A DNA stretch of 64,000 nucleotides. Source: Eubacterium sp. AB3007. GTDB lineage: Bacteria; Bacillota; Clostridia; Peptostreptococcales; Anaerovoracaceae. The first letter of the stretch is position 1; every line of letters begins with the position of its first letter. The translations under genes were made by a program, and so were the position numbers. The stretch lies in NCBI RefSeq assembly GCF_000688015.1, contig NZ_JIAD01000001.1, positions 682,001-746,000 of the forward strand, written 5' to 3'. Positions 22,853 to 30,678 of the stretch are shown here, one piece after another. The notes below the pieces were generated by a model, which saw only the letters and a list, made by a program, of their open reading frames with translations, made no database searches and was not told the DNA's origin.

Positions 22853-23120
22853 GCAACAACTCCTCAAAGATCGGATCCGTCTCCTCCGCGCTGAAGTTGG
22901 TCCGGAAGCTTCTGGACAAAGCCTTCTTCCGGCGCGCCTGTTCGATACAGGCACGGTCATCGCAGAGATACACGCCTCTCCCGTTCGCCTTGCCGGTCCG
23001 GTCAACAGACAGCTTCTCCTGGAACCAGGCGATGCGAATCATCTCTTGTTTTGGTTTTGATTCCATGCACCCGATGCACCGACGCATCGGCGGTTTTCCG
23101 TTATTCTTCCTCCGGCTCAC
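22842..23120 (-). CDS. rnpM: YlxR-family RNase P modulator
   Basis: 92 residues of the YlxR/DUF448 family: PMRRCIGCMESKPKQEM, then GRGVYLC and CIEQARRKKALSRSF. The family member RnpM binds the RNase P RNA and lowers its activity (established for Bacillus). Overlaps nusA by 20 bp and ylxQ by 11 bp. Confidence 0.92.
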   Translation of the reverse strand: MSRRKNNGKPPMRRCIGCMESKPKQEMIRIAWFQEKLSVDRTGKANGRGVYLCDDRACIEQARRKKALSRSFRTNFSAEETDPIFEELLHDK

Positions 23121-24225
23121 CTACAGCCTCCTCCGGTTCCTCGGTGATTTCCTCCGGCACGTCCATGATCTCATCCTCCTCATACTCGGAGTAGTACTGC
23201 GTATGACTCTTGATGTCGATCTTCCAGCCACTGACTCTGGCCGCCAGGCGTACGTTCTGTCCCTGCTTTCCGATGGCCAGCGACAGCTGATCATCCGGCA
23301 CGATGGCGGTGGCAATACGGGCTTCCTCATCCTCGATCACCACGTCTTCCACATCGGAAGGGCTTAGTACGTTGCAAATCAGTTCCTCAGGATCATCGCT
23401 CCAGAAAATGATATCGATCTTCTCTCCGCTGAGCTCGTCCACCACATTCTGTACGCGGGCACCTCTGGAACCGACGCATGCTCCCACCGGATCCACGTTC
23501 TCATCGTTGGACCATACGGCCATCTTGGTTCTGGAACCAGCCTCTCTGGACACACCGCGGATCTCCACGATCCCGTCCTGGATCTCTGGTACTTCCAGTT
23601 CAAACAGTCTCTCCACCAGTCCCGGATGGGATCTGGAGAGAAAGACCTGCGGACCCTTGGTGGCTTCCTTCACGTCCATGATATATACCTTCAGTCTGTC
23701 CCCAACACGGAAATGCTCGCCCGGAACCTGCTCACCGGCGGAGAGAATCCCCTCCGTTCTGCCGATGTTGACGAAGAGAGTGTTGTTGCTTCTTCTCTGT
23801 ACCACACCGGTGACGATCTCCCCCTGTCTGTCCACGTACTCGTCGTAGATCATCTTTCGCTCGGTCTCTCTCAGTCTCTGCACCACCACCTGTTTGGCTG
23901 TGGTAGCAGCGATCCGGCCGAAATCTCTCGGCTCCACCGCGAATTCGATGGCATCCCCGATCTCATAACGGGGATCGATCTCCATGGCTTCATCCAGGGA
24001 CATCTGTGTCATCTCGTCTTCCACTTCCTCCACGATATCCTTCCGCATCAGAACGGCGACATCCCCTGTGTCCGGATTGATGACTACACGAACATTCTGC
24101 GATGTCCCGTAGTTCTTCCTGTACGCGGATACCAGCGCGTTCTCAATGGTGTCAAGAAGAAGATCTTTGGAGATTCTTTTTTCTTTTTCGAGTTCATTGA
24201 GCGCTTCGATAAACTCTTTATTCAT
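23101..24225 (-). CDS. nusA: Transcription termination/antitermination protein NusA
   Basis: 374 residues: N-terminal RNA-polymerase-binding domain, S1 domain near 135-200, then two KH domains with VGACVGSRGARVQNV and SLAIGKQGQNVRLAA. The last 35 residues are acidic (Glu-rich), as is common in Clostridia; the proteobacterial AR repeats are absent. It controls pausing, termination and antitermination. A GGGAGG site precedes the ATG, 16 bp after rimP. Confidence 0.97.
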   Translation of the reverse strand: MNKEFIEALNELEKEKRISKDLLLDTIENALVSAYRKNYGTSQNVRVVINPDTGDVAVLMRKDIVEEVEDEMTQMSLDEAMEIDPRYEIGDAIEFAVEPRDFGRIAATTAKQVVVQRLRETERKMIYDEYVDRQGEIVTGVVQRRSNNTLFVNIGRTEGILSAGEQVPGEHFRVGDRLKVYIMDVKEATKGPQVFLSRSHPGLVERLFELEVPEIQDGIVEIRGVSREAGSRTKMAVWSNDENVDPVGACVGSRGARVQNVVDELSGEKIDIIFWSDDPEELICNVLSPSDVEDVVIEDEEARIATAIVPDDQLSLAIGKQGQNVRLAARVSGWKIDIKSHTQYYSEYEEDEIMDVPEEITEEPEEAVGEPEEE

Positions 24226-24241
24226 CTGGCTATTACCTCCC

Positions 24242-24721
24242 CTAAAAAATCACTGCAAGACGAACCCCTGCGGTCTCGTCCTCTCCGCATGCAACTGTCT
24301 GCCCATCCTCTGTCTCGATGGTGATCACACCATCCGTCCGTCCGATCAGCTTACCCTGGAACTCCTTCTGCCCGTCTCTGGCCTTGTAGAGCTTCAGGTC
24401 TACGATCTCGCCGGCATACCGATCAAAATGCTCCTGCGTCAGGAGCGGTCTGTCCATGCCCGGCGAACTGACTTCCAGATAGTAGTTCTGCTGGATCGGA
24501 TCCTCCCGGTCCAGTTCCTCTGAGAGGAATCGAGAGACCGCCTCACAGTCATCTGTACTTACATACTCTTCGTCCGTCCTGTCGATAAACACGCGCAGGT
24601 ACCAGTCCTTGCCTTCCTTCCGGAACTCTGTATGATAGAGCTCCAGTCCGTGCTCCTCCAGGAAAGATGTGAGGATTCTGCCGACCAGATCACGGATGTT
24701 GTTCTTCTGTGTCTTTGCCAT
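24242..24721 (-). CDS. rimP: Ribosome maturation factor RimP
   Basis: 159 residues from the ATG at 24721, chosen because GGAGGC lies just before it and because the longer frame runs through a terminator hairpin. LEVSSPGMDRPL is the family signature. RimP assists 30S maturation. First gene of the rimP-to-ribF operon. Confidence 0.95.
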   Translation of the reverse strand: MAKTQKNNIRDLVGRILTSFLEEHGLELYHTEFRKEGKDWYLRVFIDRTDEEYVSTDDCEAVSRFLSEELDREDPIQQNYYLEVSSPGMDRPLLTQEHFDRYAGEIVDLKLYKARDGQKEFQGKLIGRTDGVITIETEDGQTVACGEDETAGVRLAVIF

Positions 24722-24742
24722 TCTGCCTCCATACAAAACTGA

Positions 24743-24765
24743 AAGAGTGGGGTTTGCCCACTCTT
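24743..24765 (-). terminator. Hairpin between polC and rimP
   Basis: On the minus strand AAGAGTGGG and CCCACTCTT form a 9-bp stem followed by a T-rich stretch (TTTCAGTTTTG). It probably terminates the pyrH-polC operon; its place in front of rimP could also allow read-through control. Confidence 0.6.
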
Positions 24766-24858
24766 CTGCACCTTGTATTAACGATTCCATAGATTACTTT
24801 ACCATATATCCGGCAAACTGTCAAGGAAAACCTTTGGGCGCCAGCCTCAGATCTGGCT

Positions 24859-27800
24859 TCAGATCGCAAAGGTCAACTGATCGGTCTCTGGCATGCCGTC
24901 GAACACACCGTGCTCCCGCAATGTCTCGATCACAGACTTGGATACCTTGGAACGGTTCCTGGCTTCCTCCACGGTCCCAAAGGGTTTCTCCGCATAGGCA
25001 TCTGCCAGTGCTTCTGCCGCGGATGCTCCCACTCCAGGAAAAGCCACATAGGGCAGCACGAGCTGTCCATCGACCACCTTGAATCTCAGTGCATCCGACA
25101 GACCCAGCTCGGCATCCCGGAAGGTGAATCCACGGGCGTACATCTCATATACAAGTTCCAACACCGTGATCTGTCCTTCTTTCTTCTTACGCTCGTTCTT
25201 CTCCAGATGACTGTATTCCTCCAGTTTGCTGAGTATGGCCGCAGAGCCGGCCAGGATGGTAGCCACATCGAAATCATCCGCCGCATTGGTGAAGGTCGCC
25301 GCATAAAATTCCGCCGGGTAGTAGACTTTGTACCAGGCCAGACGAAAAGACATCATCACGTAAGCCACCGCATGCGCCCGGGGGAACATGTACTCGATCT
25401 TCCCGCAGGAGTCGATGTACCATTGGGGTACGTCATGCTCCCGCATGAGTTCTTTGTCCTCTTCCTTCAGGACTCGATTCTTCTTTCGGACATCCTCCAT
25501 GATCTGGAAAGCCTTCTCGTTCTCCAGACCCTTCAAGATCAGATAGTTCATGATATCATCACGGGTGGAGATGACCTCGCGCATGGTGGCCACGCCCTCC
25601 CGGATGTAGTCCTGAGCATTTCCAAGCCATACGGCTGTCCCGTGAGAGAAGCCTGACATACGCACCAGATCAGCGAACTTGTCCGGTTTGACATCGTCCA
25701 ACATCCCCCGCACAAAGGATGTTCCAAACTCCGGAATCCCGTAGCTTCCATGGGTGAACTGGTAGTCCGGATCCTGGATCTTCAGTGCCTCTGTACCATT
25801 GAATATGGACAGTACCGTCCGATCCGACAGATCCAGTTCCATGGGATCCACCCCGGTCATGTCCTGCAGATGACGGATCATGGAGGGGATGTTGTGCCCC
25901 AGGATATCCAGTTTCAGCAGGTTGGAGTCGATCTTGTGATAGTCGAAATGGGTGGTGATAATGTCCGAAGATGTATCGTTAGCCGGGCGCTGGATGGGAC
26001 AGAACTCGTATATCTCCCTGTCGTCCGGTACGATGACGATGCCCCCCGGATGCTGGCCCGTTGTCCGTTTGACACCGGTGCATCCGATGGCCAGCCGCTT
26101 CAGTTCGAACTCGTTGATGCTCCGTCCTGTCTCCTCGGCGAATTTCCGCACAAAGCCTTTCGCCGTTTTCTCCTGAATTGCGGACACGGTACCTGCCTTG
26201 TAAACGTTCTTCTCGCCGAAGATGACCCCCACATACTTATGGGCTCTGGCCTGATACTCACCCGCAAAGTTCAGGTCGATATCCGGTTCCTTGTTCCCCT
26301 CGAAACCCAGGAAGGTGGCAAAGGGAATGGTGAACCCATCCCGGTGCATCATGGTGCCGCAATGGGGACACGCCTTCTCCGGCATATCGATGCCGCAGTC
26401 ATAGAGGTTCATATCCCCCCACTCCAGGTGCTTGCAGTTGGGACAGATATAATGCGGATCCAGGGGGTTTACCTCCGTGATCCCTGCCATGGTGGCCGCA
26501 AAGGAGGATCCCACGGAACCTCGCGATCCCACCAGGTACCCATCCTCATTGGACTTGCGCACCAGCATCTGGGCCGACACGTACATCACCGCGTAGCCAT
26601 TGCTGATGATCGCATTCAGCTCTGTATCCAGCCTTGTCTGTATGATCTCCGGCAAAGGATCCCCGTAGATCTCATGTGCCCTTTCCATACAGGTGACTCG
26701 CAGCGTCTCCTCGGCCCCTTCGATCTTGGGAGGACACTTCTCCTTGGGAACCGGCCTGACATCGTCGATCATGTCCGCAATCTTGTTGGGATTTTCCACT
26801 ACCACCCGGTAGGCGTCTTCCTCTCCTAGATAGGCGAACTCCTCCATCATTTCCTCGGTGGTACGCAGATAGAGGCCTTCTCCGTTTTCCGCGTCCTTGA
26901 ACCCCTTTCCCATCATGATGATGTTGCGGAAGATCGCGGACTCCGGCTCGTTATAATGGGCGTCTGTGGTAGCCACCACCGGTTTCCCCAACCGGTCTGC
27001 CAGAGCAATGATCCTGCGGTTAAGTTCCCGCAGGTCGTCCCAGGAGTTTACCTCCGGGTACCGCTCATTCTCGATCATGAACCGGTTGTTGATCAACGGC
27101 TGGATCTCCAGATAGTCATAGAAGGAGGCGATCTCATCGATTTCCTCTTGCGGCCGATTCTCCCGTACTGCCCTGTATACCTCGCCAGCTTCACAGGCCG
27201 ATCCGATGATGATCCCCTCCCGGTACTGTCGGATCACCGACTTGGGAAGTCTGGGCCTGCGATAGAAATAGTGGAGATGCGAGATGGAGACCAGCTTGTA
27301 CAGGTTCTTCAACCCCTCCTGGCTGGCCGCCAGAAGGATGATGTGATTGGTCTTGACCGGATCCTTTCGGGTTCCCTTGTAGTCGATGCTTCCGTCCTCC
27401 TGGATGCGGTCCCTGTCTTCGAACACATATCCTTCCATGCCAAGGATGACCTTGATGCCGCGCTTCTGCCCCGCTCCGAATGCGTCCGGAAAACTCTGAA
27501 CGACACCGTGGTCCGTGATGGCAACCGCCGGCTGTCCCCAGTCTGCCGCTGTGTTCACCATCTGTGCCGGATCGTTCATTCCATCCATGTCGCTCATGAT
27601 GGTGTGGGCATGCAGTTCCACCCTGTGTATTCCCTGGTAGTGATCTTCCCGCCGGGGTGCCTGTCGCACCTCGATGTTACGAATCATCACATCCAGTAGG
27701 TTGTCAAATCGATTCAGTTCTGTGGTGCCCTCTGCAGCCACATAAGTACCTTCCTTATATGTATCTCCGATCTCCGCCCATTTTTCATTCTCGATGAAGA

Positions 27801-28608
27801 ACTTGAGCCGAGCGGAGGTGGCTTTGTCCGTAATGACAAGAGAGACCACCAGCCGATCGTCTCGGATCGGTTTCTCCTCTCGGTGGAAGATCATCCCCTC
27901 AACCACCACATCACCGCTTTCCGGGGACAACGAAGCCAAGGGCACCGAGTTCCCGGTCACCTTGTTCCCCAGACCGCCCCGTCGCCGCCTGTTTCGCTTG
28001 GGTGTGCCCACCGGTTTCCCGGCAGGTGCGCTTGACCTGGGCTTCGGAGCATCTCCCGCTGCAGGCTTGGGTGCCGCCGCCTGTTCAGCGATGATCCGGT
28101 TCTCCAGCTCCTTCTCGACCAGATCATACTGCTCCGCGTCATTGCGGAACATGACACGGATAGGCCGCTTAAGGAGTCCGGATAGCCCCTCGTCCACAAA
28201 CCTGGCCGCACTATGGTTCAGAGTCTCACTCATGGTCTGCCCCACTGTGAAGATGGTGACCTGCTCCCCTTCTACGACGACCTTCCCGGGATCGATCCGG
28301 CCAAAGTAGTAGCCGTTGTGGCGTCGCAGCACCCGTTCTGTTTCCAGAGCCACTGCAATCGTTTCCTCTATGGCCAAATCCTCTCTAACGAAATGCATAC
28401 GCACGCGGCTGACGCCGGGGATTTCCACAGAGATCCTGTCCGCGATCTGCTCCTCTGCCTCTTGCGGCAACACAAAATCCAGGCTGACCTTCAGTTCCAG
28501 GAGTCCGGTATGCTCGCTAAGGATCGCATCCAGGATCTCACACTGAAGATCATCCGGTCCTTTTCCGACTCTCTTCCAATCTATATTGTCAACAAATACT
28601 TTGTTCAT
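24859..28608 (-). CDS. polC: DNA polymerase III, PolC type, without the exonuclease domain
   Basis: 1249 residues; usual PolC proteins have about 1430-1450. Order seen: N-terminal domains (1-170), a linker rich in Ala, Pro and Arg (175-215), an OB fold (230-320), PHP part one (HAHTIMSDMDG from 333 to about 392), PHP part two from about 421, the palm with zinc motif C722-C725-C747-C750, and the catalytic PDIDLNF at 775-781. In ordinary PolC the DEDD 3'-5' exonuclease (VVFDxETTG) sits between the two PHP parts. Here only about 30 residues (EDRDRIQEDGSIDYKG...) link them and no DEDD motif is present anywhere. Start overlaps ispG by four bases. Polymerase call is certain; loss of proofreading is an inference from the missing domain. 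Confidence 0.96.
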   Translation of the reverse strand: MNKVFVDNIDWKRVGKGPDDLQCEILDAILSEHTGLLELKVSLDFVLPQEAEEQIADRISVEIPGVSRVRMHFVREDLAIEETIAVALETERVLRRHNGYYFGRIDPGKVVVEGEQVTIFTVGQTMSETLNHSAARFVDEGLSGLLKRPIRVMFRNDAEQYDLVEKELENRIIAEQAAAPKPAAGDAPKPRSSAPAGKPVGTPKRNRRRRGGLGNKVTGNSVPLASLSPESGDVVVEGMIFHREEKPIRDDRLVVSLVITDKATSARLKFFIENEKWAEIGDTYKEGTYVAAEGTTELNRFDNLLDVMIRNIEVRQAPRREDHYQGIHRVELHAHTIMSDMDGMNDPAQMVNTAADWGQPAVAITDHGVVQSFPDAFGAGQKRGIKVILGMEGYVFEDRDRIQEDGSIDYKGTRKDPVKTNHIILLAASQEGLKNLYKLVSISHLHYFYRRPRLPKSVIRQYREGIIIGSACEAGEVYRAVRENRPQEEIDEIASFYDYLEIQPLINNRFMIENERYPEVNSWDDLRELNRRIIALADRLGKPVVATTDAHYNEPESAIFRNIIMMGKGFKDAENGEGLYLRTTEEMMEEFAYLGEEDAYRVVVENPNKIADMIDDVRPVPKEKCPPKIEGAEETLRVTCMERAHEIYGDPLPEIIQTRLDTELNAIISNGYAVMYVSAQMLVRKSNEDGYLVGSRGSVGSSFAATMAGITEVNPLDPHYICPNCKHLEWGDMNLYDCGIDMPEKACPHCGTMMHRDGFTIPFATFLGFEGNKEPDIDLNFAGEYQARAHKYVGVIFGEKNVYKAGTVSAIQEKTAKGFVRKFAEETGRSINEFELKRLAIGCTGVKRTTGQHPGGIVIVPDDREIYEFCPIQRPANDTSSDIITTHFDYHKIDSNLLKLDILGHNIPSMIRHLQDMTGVDPMELDLSDRTVLSIFNGTEALKIQDPDYQFTHGSYGIPEFGTSFVRGMLDDVKPDKFADLVRMSGFSHGTAVWLGNAQDYIREGVATMREVISTRDDIMNYLILKGLENEKAFQIMEDVRKKNRVLKEEDKELMREHDVPQWYIDSCGKIEYMFPRAHAVAYVMMSFRLAWYKVYYPAEFYAATFTNAADDFDVATILAGSAAILSKLEEYSHLEKNERKKKEGQITVLELVYEMYARGFTFRDAELGLSDALRFKVVDGQLVLPYVAFPGVGASAAEALADAYAEKPFGTVEEARNRSKVSKSVIETLREHGVFDGMPETDQLTFAI

Positions 28609-29651
28609 GCGTTTCTAATCGTCCGGATCAGCTCTTCTGCAAGATCCTCTTCCTTCACTGTCTTGATGACTTCCCCTCTGGCGATGATCATCCCCTTGCC
28701 GTCGCCGCCGCAGCAGCCGAAGTCAGCAGATGCTCCCTCGCCGGGGCCGTTTACCACGCATCCCATGACTGCGACCTTCAGTCCTGGTGGAAGGTCGGTC
28801 ATAGCAGCAAGCCGCCGATCCACATCTTCTGCCAGAGCCGCGAGATCGATCCGTGTGCGCCCGCAGGTGGGACAGGACACCAGATCGTACCTGGGTTCTC
28901 TCATTCCGATCACTTCCAGAATCTCTCTGGCCGCATAGATCTCCTCTACCGGATCTGCGGTCAGGGACACACGAATGGTATCGCCGATGCCAGCCAGCAG
29001 CAATGCGCCCAGCCCTGCAGCGGATTTCAGTTTCCCCCGGCGGACTGTACCGGCTTCCGTGATCCCGATATGAAAGGGATGCTCTGTGTTCTGGGCGGCC
29101 AGCCTGTGCGCCTGATAGGTCATGGCCACATCTGATGACTTGATGGAGATCACCAGATTGTCGTAGCCCATATCCTCGATGCGTCTTACATTCCGAAGGG
29201 CACTCTCTGCCAGTCCCTCCGCAGTGACACCACCGTTTTTCTCCAGGATATCCTTCTCAAGAGAACCGGAATTGACACCGACGCGGATGGGGATCTGCCG
29301 TTCTCTTGCCGCATCGACCACAGCACATACACGCTCATCGGAGCCGATGTTGCCAGGGTTGATACGTATCTTGTCCGCACCGGCTTCCATAGCGCCGATG
29401 GCCAGGCGATAATCAAAATGAATGTCTGCCACCATGGGCATATCTGTATGCTGCCGCACGCGGCGGAACACCTCCAGACCTTCCTGATCCGGTACCGCCA
29501 GCCGGACGATATCACACCCGGCATCCTGCAGCCTGGCGATCTGTTCGGTGATCCCTTTCTCGTCTCTGGAATCCGCATTGGTCATGGACTGGATTGCCAC
29601 CGGTGCCCCACCGCCGATGGGAATATCTCTGATCATTACCTGTTTACTCAT
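28605..29651 (-). CDS. ispG: 4-hydroxy-3-methylbut-2-enyl diphosphate synthase
   Basis: 348 residues from the ATG at 29651, which has a GAGGAG site. SMTNADSRD at the start, the TIM-barrel part with KIRINPGNIG, and the 4Fe-4S cysteines in CPTCGR and GCVVNGPGE identify IspG. It performs the penultimate step of the MEP pathway, working with dxr in the same operon. Confidence 0.97.
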   Translation of the reverse strand: MSKQVMIRDIPIGGGAPVAIQSMTNADSRDEKGITEQIARLQDAGCDIVRLAVPDQEGLEVFRRVRQHTDMPMVADIHFDYRLAIGAMEAGADKIRINPGNIGSDERVCAVVDAARERQIPIRVGVNSGSLEKDILEKNGGVTAEGLAESALRNVRRIEDMGYDNLVISIKSSDVAMTYQAHRLAAQNTEHPFHIGITEAGTVRRGKLKSAAGLGALLLAGIGDTIRVSLTADPVEEIYAAREILEVIGMREPRYDLVSCPTCGRTRIDLAALAEDVDRRLAAMTDLPPGLKVAVMGCVVNGPGEGASADFGCCGGDGKGMIIARGEVIKTVKEEDLAEELIRTIRNA

Positions 29652-29685
29652 CGTCTTACTCCTCTTGCTACGCTGCCCGGATTGA

Positions 29686-30678
29686 TCATTGCAGCAGCCT
29701 GCTGATGTCATTCCAGGTGACCAGCACCACCAGAAGCAGCAACAGAATCATTCCCGCTGCATGCACCATAGCCTCTTGCCGGTCTGTGATCTTTTCTCCT
29801 GTGATCTGCCGTATGATGACGAATACGATGCGACCTCCATCCAGGGCTGGAAACGGAAGCAGGTTTAGAATGGCCAGGTTCCAGCTGATGAGTGCCAGCA
29901 GCATCAGGAAGGAGGTTAATCCCCTGGACTCTGTCTGATGCACCAGCGACACCATCCCCACAGGACCTGCTACATCGTCCGCCTTCACTCCGCCGGTAAA
30001 CAACTGATGGAATGCATCGATCATCATCCCGCCCAGATTCTTCGTGGCGATGGCACCGTAGCCAAGTGACTTCAGAACACTTCTTTCTCTTCCCCAGGTG
30101 ATACCGATCTTGTAACCTTGGTCTTGTTTTTCGGGAGTCACGGTAAGGTCTTGATTCTTCCCCTCCCGTTCAACGGTCACGGTCATGGGCTTCCCCCTGA
30201 CGATGACCTCTGCCACATCGTCCACATCACGAGTACGCTGTCCATCGATGGCCACGATGGTATCTCCCGGCTGCATCCCGGCGATGGCTGCCGGACTTTC
30301 CGGCACCACCTCCTGCACCTGAAGACTGGCGAACCCCAGGATCCCCAACATCACCGTCAGTGCCAGATACGCGATGAGCACGTTCATTGCCGCACCGGAC
30401 ACCAGAATGATGATGCGCGCCCACCATGGCTTGTTGCAGAATGCACGGTCATCCTCTGAGTCGCCATCCTCCCCCTCCAGGGCATTGTAACCGCCGATGG
30501 GAAGGATCCTAATGGAATACAGTGTCTCCCGGCCTTGTTTTTTCCAGATTGCCGGACCCATCCCAAAGGCAAACTCGTTGACTCTGACTCCCAGCAATCT
30601 CGCCGCAAGAAAATGCCCCAGCTCGTGGGGAAAGATCATCAAGGCAAACAACAGGATCGCAAGTATCGCTGTCTTCAT
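29686..30678 (-). CDS. rseP: RIP site-2 metalloprotease RseP
   Basis: 330 residues. HELGH at 18-22 in the first transmembrane helix is the zinc site, a PDZ domain lies at about 105-185, and NLLPFPALDGGR near the end gives the third ligand. In Bacillota this protease (RasP) cuts anti-sigma factors and leftover signal peptides. The gene overlaps dxr by four bases, the standard dxr-rseP-ispG arrangement. Confidence 0.96.
   Translation of the reverse strand: MKTAILAILLFALMIFPHELGHFLAARLLGVRVNEFAFGMGPAIWKKQGRETLYSIRILPIGGYNALEGEDGDSEDDRAFCNKPWWARIIILVSGAAMNVLIAYLALTVMLGILGFASLQVQEVVPESPAAIAGMQPGDTIVAIDGQRTRDVDDVAEVIVRGKPMTVTVEREGKNQDLTVTPEKQDQGYKIGITWGRERSVLKSLGYGAIATKNLGGMMIDAFHQLFTGGVKADDVAGPVGMVSLVHQTESRGLTSFLMLLALISWNLAILNLLPFPALDGGRIVFVIIRQITGEKITDRQEAMVHAAGMILLLLLVVLVTWNDISRLLQ

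Follow-up and report, generated by a model that had tools for sequence, protein, structure and literature searches.

Which enzyme proofreads for a PolC-type replicase that has lost its exonuclease? The question is raised by a stretch of 64,000 nucleotides from Eubacterium sp. AB3007 (contig NZ_JIAD01000001.1, positions 682,001 to 746,000; hereafter the window, meaning this stretch at its full length), in which polC codes for a DNA polymerase III alpha subunit without the DEDDh exonuclease that other PolCs hold inside their PHP domain. The loss is confirmed to be real and clean. A sequence-only reading of the window offered two answers, namely that a separate DnaQ-like protein supplies the proofreading or that the lineage replicates with low fidelity; both are disfavored by the evidence below. 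A third option lay outside that reading: the nine ligands that mark a proofreading exonuclease are all present in the PHP domain of the window PolC. Proofreading is most likely the work of this domain, backed by the intact PHP domain of DnaE and by the mismatch repair proteins MutS and MutL. The gene and the relevant parts of its product are the following, in window positions.

24859..28608, minus strand: polC, exonuclease-less PolC-type DNA polymerase III alpha (1249 residues, ATG start, open frame)
27712..27909, minus strand: OB-fold, residues 234-299 (Pfam PF01336, 20.3 bits, under the cut-off of 27; the structure model aligns with OB-fold chains)
26929..27618, minus strand: PHP domain, about residues 331-560 (Pfam PF02811 covers residues 331-503 with 120.7 bits; we set the end at 560 so that D549 and H551 fall inside)
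27346..27432, minus strand: junction loop, residues 393-421 (29 residues), where other PolCs hold the DEDDh exonuclease (alignment with exonuclease-bearing PolCs)
26962..26964, minus strand: codon of D549 (phmmer alignments with 7pu7, 3f2b and 9qpc)
25444..26706, minus strand: polymerase core and fingers, residues 635-1055, including PDIDLNF (Pfam PF07733 and PF17657, above cut-off)
24889..25089, minus strand: helix-hairpin-helix region, residues 1174-1240 (Pfam PF14579, 24.2 bits, cut-off 25.6)

Alignment with exonuclease-bearing PolCs leaves 29 residues between the PHP ligands E392 and H422 of the window PolC, whereas the same stretch spans 208-237 residues in 30 PolCs with all five DEDDh residues, so that the window protein is about 180-210 residues short. 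No Pfam match to an RNase_T exonuclease was found in it, even at E up to 1. When the whole 64-kb window was scanned with a degenerate nucleotide pattern of the exonuclease I motif, three matches with two mismatches came up, against 2.4 expected by chance, none of them within polC. An AlphaFold2 model of residues 225-645, with a mean pLDDT (predicted local distance difference test score) of 91.2, finds its best PDB fits among PolC and DnaE-type alpha subunits, and its junction is well ordered (pLDDT 91-95 across the four 10-residue blocks that contain loop 393-421). The sequence-only reading, according to which the PHP halves are joined by about 30 residues (392-421), the DEDD exonuclease motifs are absent, the protein is about 190 residues short and the polymerase core with PDIDLNF is intact, is borne out on each of these points, and the structure prediction that it suggested finds the joint ordered.

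A missing segment of about 550 bp could in principle be an assembly artefact or a sequencing gap, an explanation that is almost certainly wrong. The polC frame is open and the genome is a single contig. Moreover, all of the best 80 of 353 relatives, every one of them from another assembly, share a short joint of 19-39 residues (24 by alignment in L025), and a local assembly error is therefore excluded. Named among those 80 are Hornefia butyriciproducens, Aminicella lysinilytica, Emergencia timonensis and Mogibacterium kristiansenii; Hornefia, Aminicella and Emergencia are the nearest named rows to the window PolC among the matches listed. As nearest relatives, the 80 show that the clade is exonuclease-less, not how frequent this state is. 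The deletion is thus common to them, and the clean domain excision first proposed from the continuous frame stands.

What remains around the junction is an older metal site, and it is complete. The nine PHP ligands of the window PolC (H333, H335, D342, H367, E392, H422, C472, D549 and H551) are all present by alignment, and the corresponding set HHDHEHCDH is complete in this protein and in 79 of the best 80 relatives, the sole exception having a sequence truncated ahead of the first ligand; the two polymerase aspartates are kept as well. The comparison was widened to an 86-row PolC set made of the window protein, 22 hand-picked members of the 80 named loci, and 63 of 70 whole-genome loci. These 70 were picked to include many exonuclease-less lineages, so that proportions in the set are not frequencies; seven were dropped, either for want of a frame with the polymerase motif (G059, G115, G210) or as partial (G113, G126, G221, G281). 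All nine ligands are kept in 51/51 exonuclease-less, 30/30 exonuclease-bearing and 5/5 exonuclease-degenerate PolCs. In phmmer alignments, D549 falls opposite D226 of Mycobacterium tuberculosis DnaE1 (numbered by hand along the 7pu7 chain) and opposite an asparagine in the solved PolCs 3f2b and 9qpc. According to the portions of PMC5636811 used here, D226 is essential for the PHP exonuclease of DnaE1, its change to asparagine abolishes activity, and the PHP domain is the essential replicative exonuclease of mycobacteria.

A mechanism can be proposed on this basis. The lineage has cut the DEDDh exonuclease out of its PHP loop. Since the nine-ligand metal site of the PHP domain is still complete in the sampled clostridial PolCs, the inserted domain was probably dispensable as a second exonuclease, and many losses would be possible. 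The PHP exonuclease of PolC would now proofread, with the intact DnaE PHP domain and MutS/MutL as backup. Its site would be catalytically active and edit mismatches, and redundancy would be why the loss was tolerated.

The rest of the genome, searched as one contig of 2.30 Mb, bears on the other answers. Only two C-family polymerases were found in it, PolC and one DnaE (NF005298, 1655.9 bits, cut-off 1260). The latter has nine of nine PHP ligands, as does every one of the 28 DnaEs, out of 30 retrieved, in which the domain is covered, and it is presumably a DnaE1, by analogy with papers that attribute an intact PHP domain to DnaE1 but not to DnaE3. The sole RNase_T protein, L001 (190 residues, G000:C1:1910763-1911275), is of the DEDDh family and makes proofreading in trans by a stand-alone DnaQ-like exonuclease conceivable; we nonetheless consider such an arrangement improbable. 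L001 is scored best by the KapD model of NCBIfam (65.7 bits, itself under the cut-off of 169) and poorly by the epsilon models (28.9 bits for dnaq, cut-off 71.5; 26.4 for dnaQ_proteo, cut-off 222.7). The search recommended by the earlier reading, for a stand-alone DEDD exonuclease or a second polC or dnaE, thus yielded one KapD-like DEDDh protein and one DnaE, and no match at the level of an epsilon subunit. A move of the exonuclease elsewhere in the genome was considered and rejected: the only RNase_T match is L001 and the only PF01612 match a weak one in DNA polymerase I, while PF13482, PF10108 and PolX were not searched. This polymerase I (L085, G000:C1:421378-421632, in an 895-residue frame) reaches just 19.1 bits against PF01612, the DEDDy exonuclease family (cut-off 23.6), and its DxE motif seems gone by eye; loss of exonuclease motifs in polymerase I is described as common in Firmicutes in the part of a 2026 survey used here (PMC12926913).

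Proofreading in trans can also be judged across the family. In 100 Anaerovoracaceae genomes called at least 90% complete by the survey tool, PolC presence was taken as a match at E<=1e-80, RNase_T absence as no match at E<=0.001, and the exonuclease-less state as no RNase_T match inside the PolC frame, the counts being joined by hand. PolC was found in 86 genomes and went undetected in 14; 12 of the 86 are exonuclease-bearing, a state confirmed by sequence in all 12, and 74 are exonuclease-less, the call being less sure for seven of them because their PolC frames are broken or truncated (G293, G299, G307, G323, G344, G348, G356). Of these 74, 21 have one or more RNase_T matches elsewhere than in PolC, which leaves room for help in trans; in the remaining 53 no RNase_T match occurs, nor in the three further genomes sampled from the window genus. 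No stand-alone protein is therefore a regular replacement.

L001 was compared with 20 chosen RNase_T regions, 11 of them from 10 PolC-less genomes and nine from exonuclease-less ones (the PolC-less G375 and 11 of the 21 exonuclease-less genomes with matches were left out). The 21 fall into a group of ten that includes L001, a group of seven closer to the PolC exonuclease, and three sets of one or two. The L001 group also includes proteins of PolC-less genomes (6 of the 11 inspected from those), a point against proofreading in trans. A stand-alone exonuclease common to exonuclease-less genomes was rejected as a candidate, no single group taking in all 21. Separately, five scattered genomes contain stand-alone frames of 246-348 residues (L086 in G309, L220 in G356, L221 in G362, L222 in G383 and L223 in G379; four of the five were in the comparison) whose RNase_T scores of 113-149 bits are comparable with those of PolC's own domain; they may be PolC exonucleases that became separate genes, or members of a different family.

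Low-fidelity replication, with proofreading lost in the lineage, is the least probable of the biological readings. The missing DEDDh domain and the weak polymerase I match speak for it. Against it, the PHP ligands are intact in both replicases, mutS scores 1024.7 bits (cut-off 641.7) and adjoins mutL, which exceeds its cut-off in this genome and in 97 of the 100 family genomes, and the exonuclease-less state is common to 40 of the 48 PolC-bearing genera of the family, in genomes of 1.1-4.8 Mb. Loss of mismatch repair was looked for and not seen, MutS and MutL both being present. Two more MutS-like frames, of 805 and 556 residues (G000:C1:914653-915513 and 1957033-1957722), score under the MutS1 cut-off.

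PolC may instead have been demoted: DnaE would replicate with its own PHP proofreading, PolC would play a minor part, and the loss of the exonuclease would be a step toward the loss of PolC. We consider this unlikely, although it is the strongest of the competing explanations. A minor role for PolC was raised in the discussion of Timinskas et al. (2013; PMC3919608), and 14 of the 100 family genomes have no PolC at the threshold used (G300, G311, G312, G318, G327, G329, G351, G352, G355, G360, G377 and G380, with G297 and G375 weaker). DnaE is present in 13 of the 14; a PolC-type match to the DnaE query was found in none of those 13, against 18/18 PolC-bearing genomes, and PolC is absent from every genome sampled (two or three each) of genera g199, g200, g206 and g217. 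PolC thus seems dispensable on an evolutionary time scale in the family, and the demotion idea therefore stays alive. On the other side, some absences are weak: G297 also lacks a DnaE match, the assemblies of G375 and G380 are highly fragmented, at 480 and 320 contigs, and two genus mates of G375 (G303 and G348) have PolC. The polymerase aspartates and PHP ligands are, moreover, kept in the window PolC and its best relatives. An RNase_T match occurs in 11 of the 14 PolC-less genomes vs. 21 of the 74 exonuclease-less ones, a comparison not corrected for kinship. One PolC-less genome, G327, has two full-length DnaE genes, on C55 and C12.

The pace of PolC evolution was compared as well. The PolC/DnaE distance ratio, a coarse test made with pairwise distances among 17 hand-chosen genomes, has a median of 0.95 in exonuclease-less genomes (55 pairs, 11 genomes), 1.04 in exonuclease-bearing genomes (15 pairs, six genomes) and 1.02 across the two states (66 pairs). 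With ranges that overlap this broadly, relaxed constraint is not indicated, and PolC diverges no faster after the loss, which argues against both demotion and low fidelity. Relaxed PolC evolution after exonuclease loss was thus a candidate not seen in these distances.

The exonuclease has been lost repeatedly across the class. In a quick PolC tree of the 86 rows, built with insert columns excluded under LG+G4 and with Shimodaira-Hasegawa-like approximate likelihood ratio (SH-aLRT) support only, the 51 excised rows need at least seven changes, five of them forced by well-supported branches, and a single clade for these rows is rejected (approximately unbiased test, p-AU 1.5e-68). The sampled families f2-f6 of the same order are exonuclease-bearing, and when six PolCs from them serve as outgroup, so are the deepest branches of the window's family; loss is therefore the natural reading within it. 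Five proteins with decayed inserts (161-327 residues, DEDDh set incomplete, PHP ligands intact) were found: L159, L162 and L163 in family f41 (genomes G050, G119 and G207), L161 in f26 (G190) and L155 in f38 (G083). L160 of G021, also in f26, has an intact DEDDh set by its catalytic columns. Decay of the exonuclease may precede or replace its excision.

Several points weigh against proofreading by the PHP domain of PolC. PHP integrity fails to separate exonuclease-bearing from exonuclease-less rows in the 86-row set; because the domain is equally intact in exonuclease-bearing PolCs (30/30), its ligands point to a permissive background and to no response to the loss. In the portions of PMC5636811 used here, the Geobacillus kaustophilus (Gka) PolC, with one ligand changed, had no exonuclease activity, and proofreading by a PolC PHP domain is not shown. 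L001 could help in trans, the distance test is coarse, and more than one loss within the family alone is only weakly supported (p-AU 0.025, for a group named after seeing the tree).

Carried further, the preferred reading, in which the PHP domain of PolC proofreads, leads to a general scheme that we hold about as probable as its negation: Clostridia would repeatedly have arrived at a DEDD-less replisome in which PolC and DnaE are each proofread only by their own PHP domain. PHP redundancy, retained among clostridial PolCs and broken by an aspartate-to-asparagine change in two solved PolCs, would permit the excision, the decayed exonucleases of f41, f26 and f38 would be a halfway state, and the loss of PolC would be the end point in some genera of the family. 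The value of the case lies in a testable rule, namely that exonuclease loss is possible for a PolC whose PHP site is intact. Since exonuclease-bearing, exonuclease-less and no-detectable-PolC genomes coexist in one family, the Anaerovoracaceae form a natural experiment on the identity of the proofreader in PolC + DnaE1 bacteria, in which proofreading by the PHP domain of PolC can be tested directly.

The locus itself is unremarkable, and the normal operon reported in the earlier reading is present, in the order ispG-polC-rimP-nusA.

28605..29711, minus strand: ispG, with a 4-base overlap with polC (NCBIfam NF001540 and TIGR00612, above cut-off)
24242..24790, minus strand: rimP-like gene, downstream of polC (NCBIfam RimP models, best 143.1 bits, under their cut-offs)
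23101..24225, minus strand: nusA (NCBIfam TIGR01953, above cut-off)

The window protein exceeds the cut-offs of both PolC equivalogs of NCBIfam (NF001688, 1396.1 bits, cut-off 873; TIGR01405, 1299.3 bits, cut-off 1043.45). Its OB-fold and helix-hairpin-helix matches are under the Pfam cut-offs but at the expected places, the former backed by the structure comparison, and its C-terminus DQLTFAI (window 24862-24888) resembles a clamp-binding motif and may be one. It is an ordinary PolC of a PolC + DnaE system that groups with the Anaerovoracaceae (Clostridia).

The excision is a known variant, described in 2013, and should therefore not surprise the specialist. That PolC carries its exonuclease in cis, assumed as a rule in the earlier reading, already had published exceptions: in the portions of PMC3919608 used here, 6% of PolCs are without the exonuclease insertion (16% in the PolC + DnaE1 group of its Table 2), all in Clostridia and Negativicutes, where PolC is paired with DnaE1, bar one extra copy in Thermotogae. 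Its authors called for experiments on who proofreads in PolC + DnaE1 bacteria, and the 2026 survey names three candidate proofreaders in most Clostridia (PMC12926913). Our literature search, which did not cover the published species lists, listed no match joining PolC, its exonuclease domain and Anaerovoracaceae, and the portion of PMC3774996 used here does not treat exonuclease-less PolC.

Compared with the published exonuclease-less PolCs of Clostridia and Negativicutes (PMC3919608, as far as used here), the window protein likewise lacks the insertion, and its genome likewise has a DnaE-type polymerase beside PolC; no architectural difference is seen, and the lineage adds one more example. 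What goes beyond that paper is the repeated loss, with genome-wide exonuclease, mismatch-repair and phylogeny data. With canonical PolC (the Bacillus subtilis type; 3f2b of Geobacillus kaustophilus, and 9qpc) it shares the PHP domain, polymerase core, helix-hairpin-helix region and N-terminal OB-fold, but it is without the DEDDh exonuclease inserted in PHP, and it has D549 where both solved proteins have asparagine. In the portions of PMC3656037 used here, 3f2b is itself an engineered deletion of the N-domain and exonuclease, and a Staphylococcus aureus PolC construct without both polymerizes fast in vitro. With M. tuberculosis DnaE1 (PMC5636811, in the portions used here; 5lew, 7pu7), the window PolC has in common the nine PHP ligands and a short loop where PolC holds the exonuclease, although the loops are counted differently (residues 77-105 there, 29 residues between ligands here). 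The mycobacterial enzyme is a DnaE-type polymerase with proven PHP activity, whereas the one described here is a PolC whose activity is, at present, predicted from its ligands.

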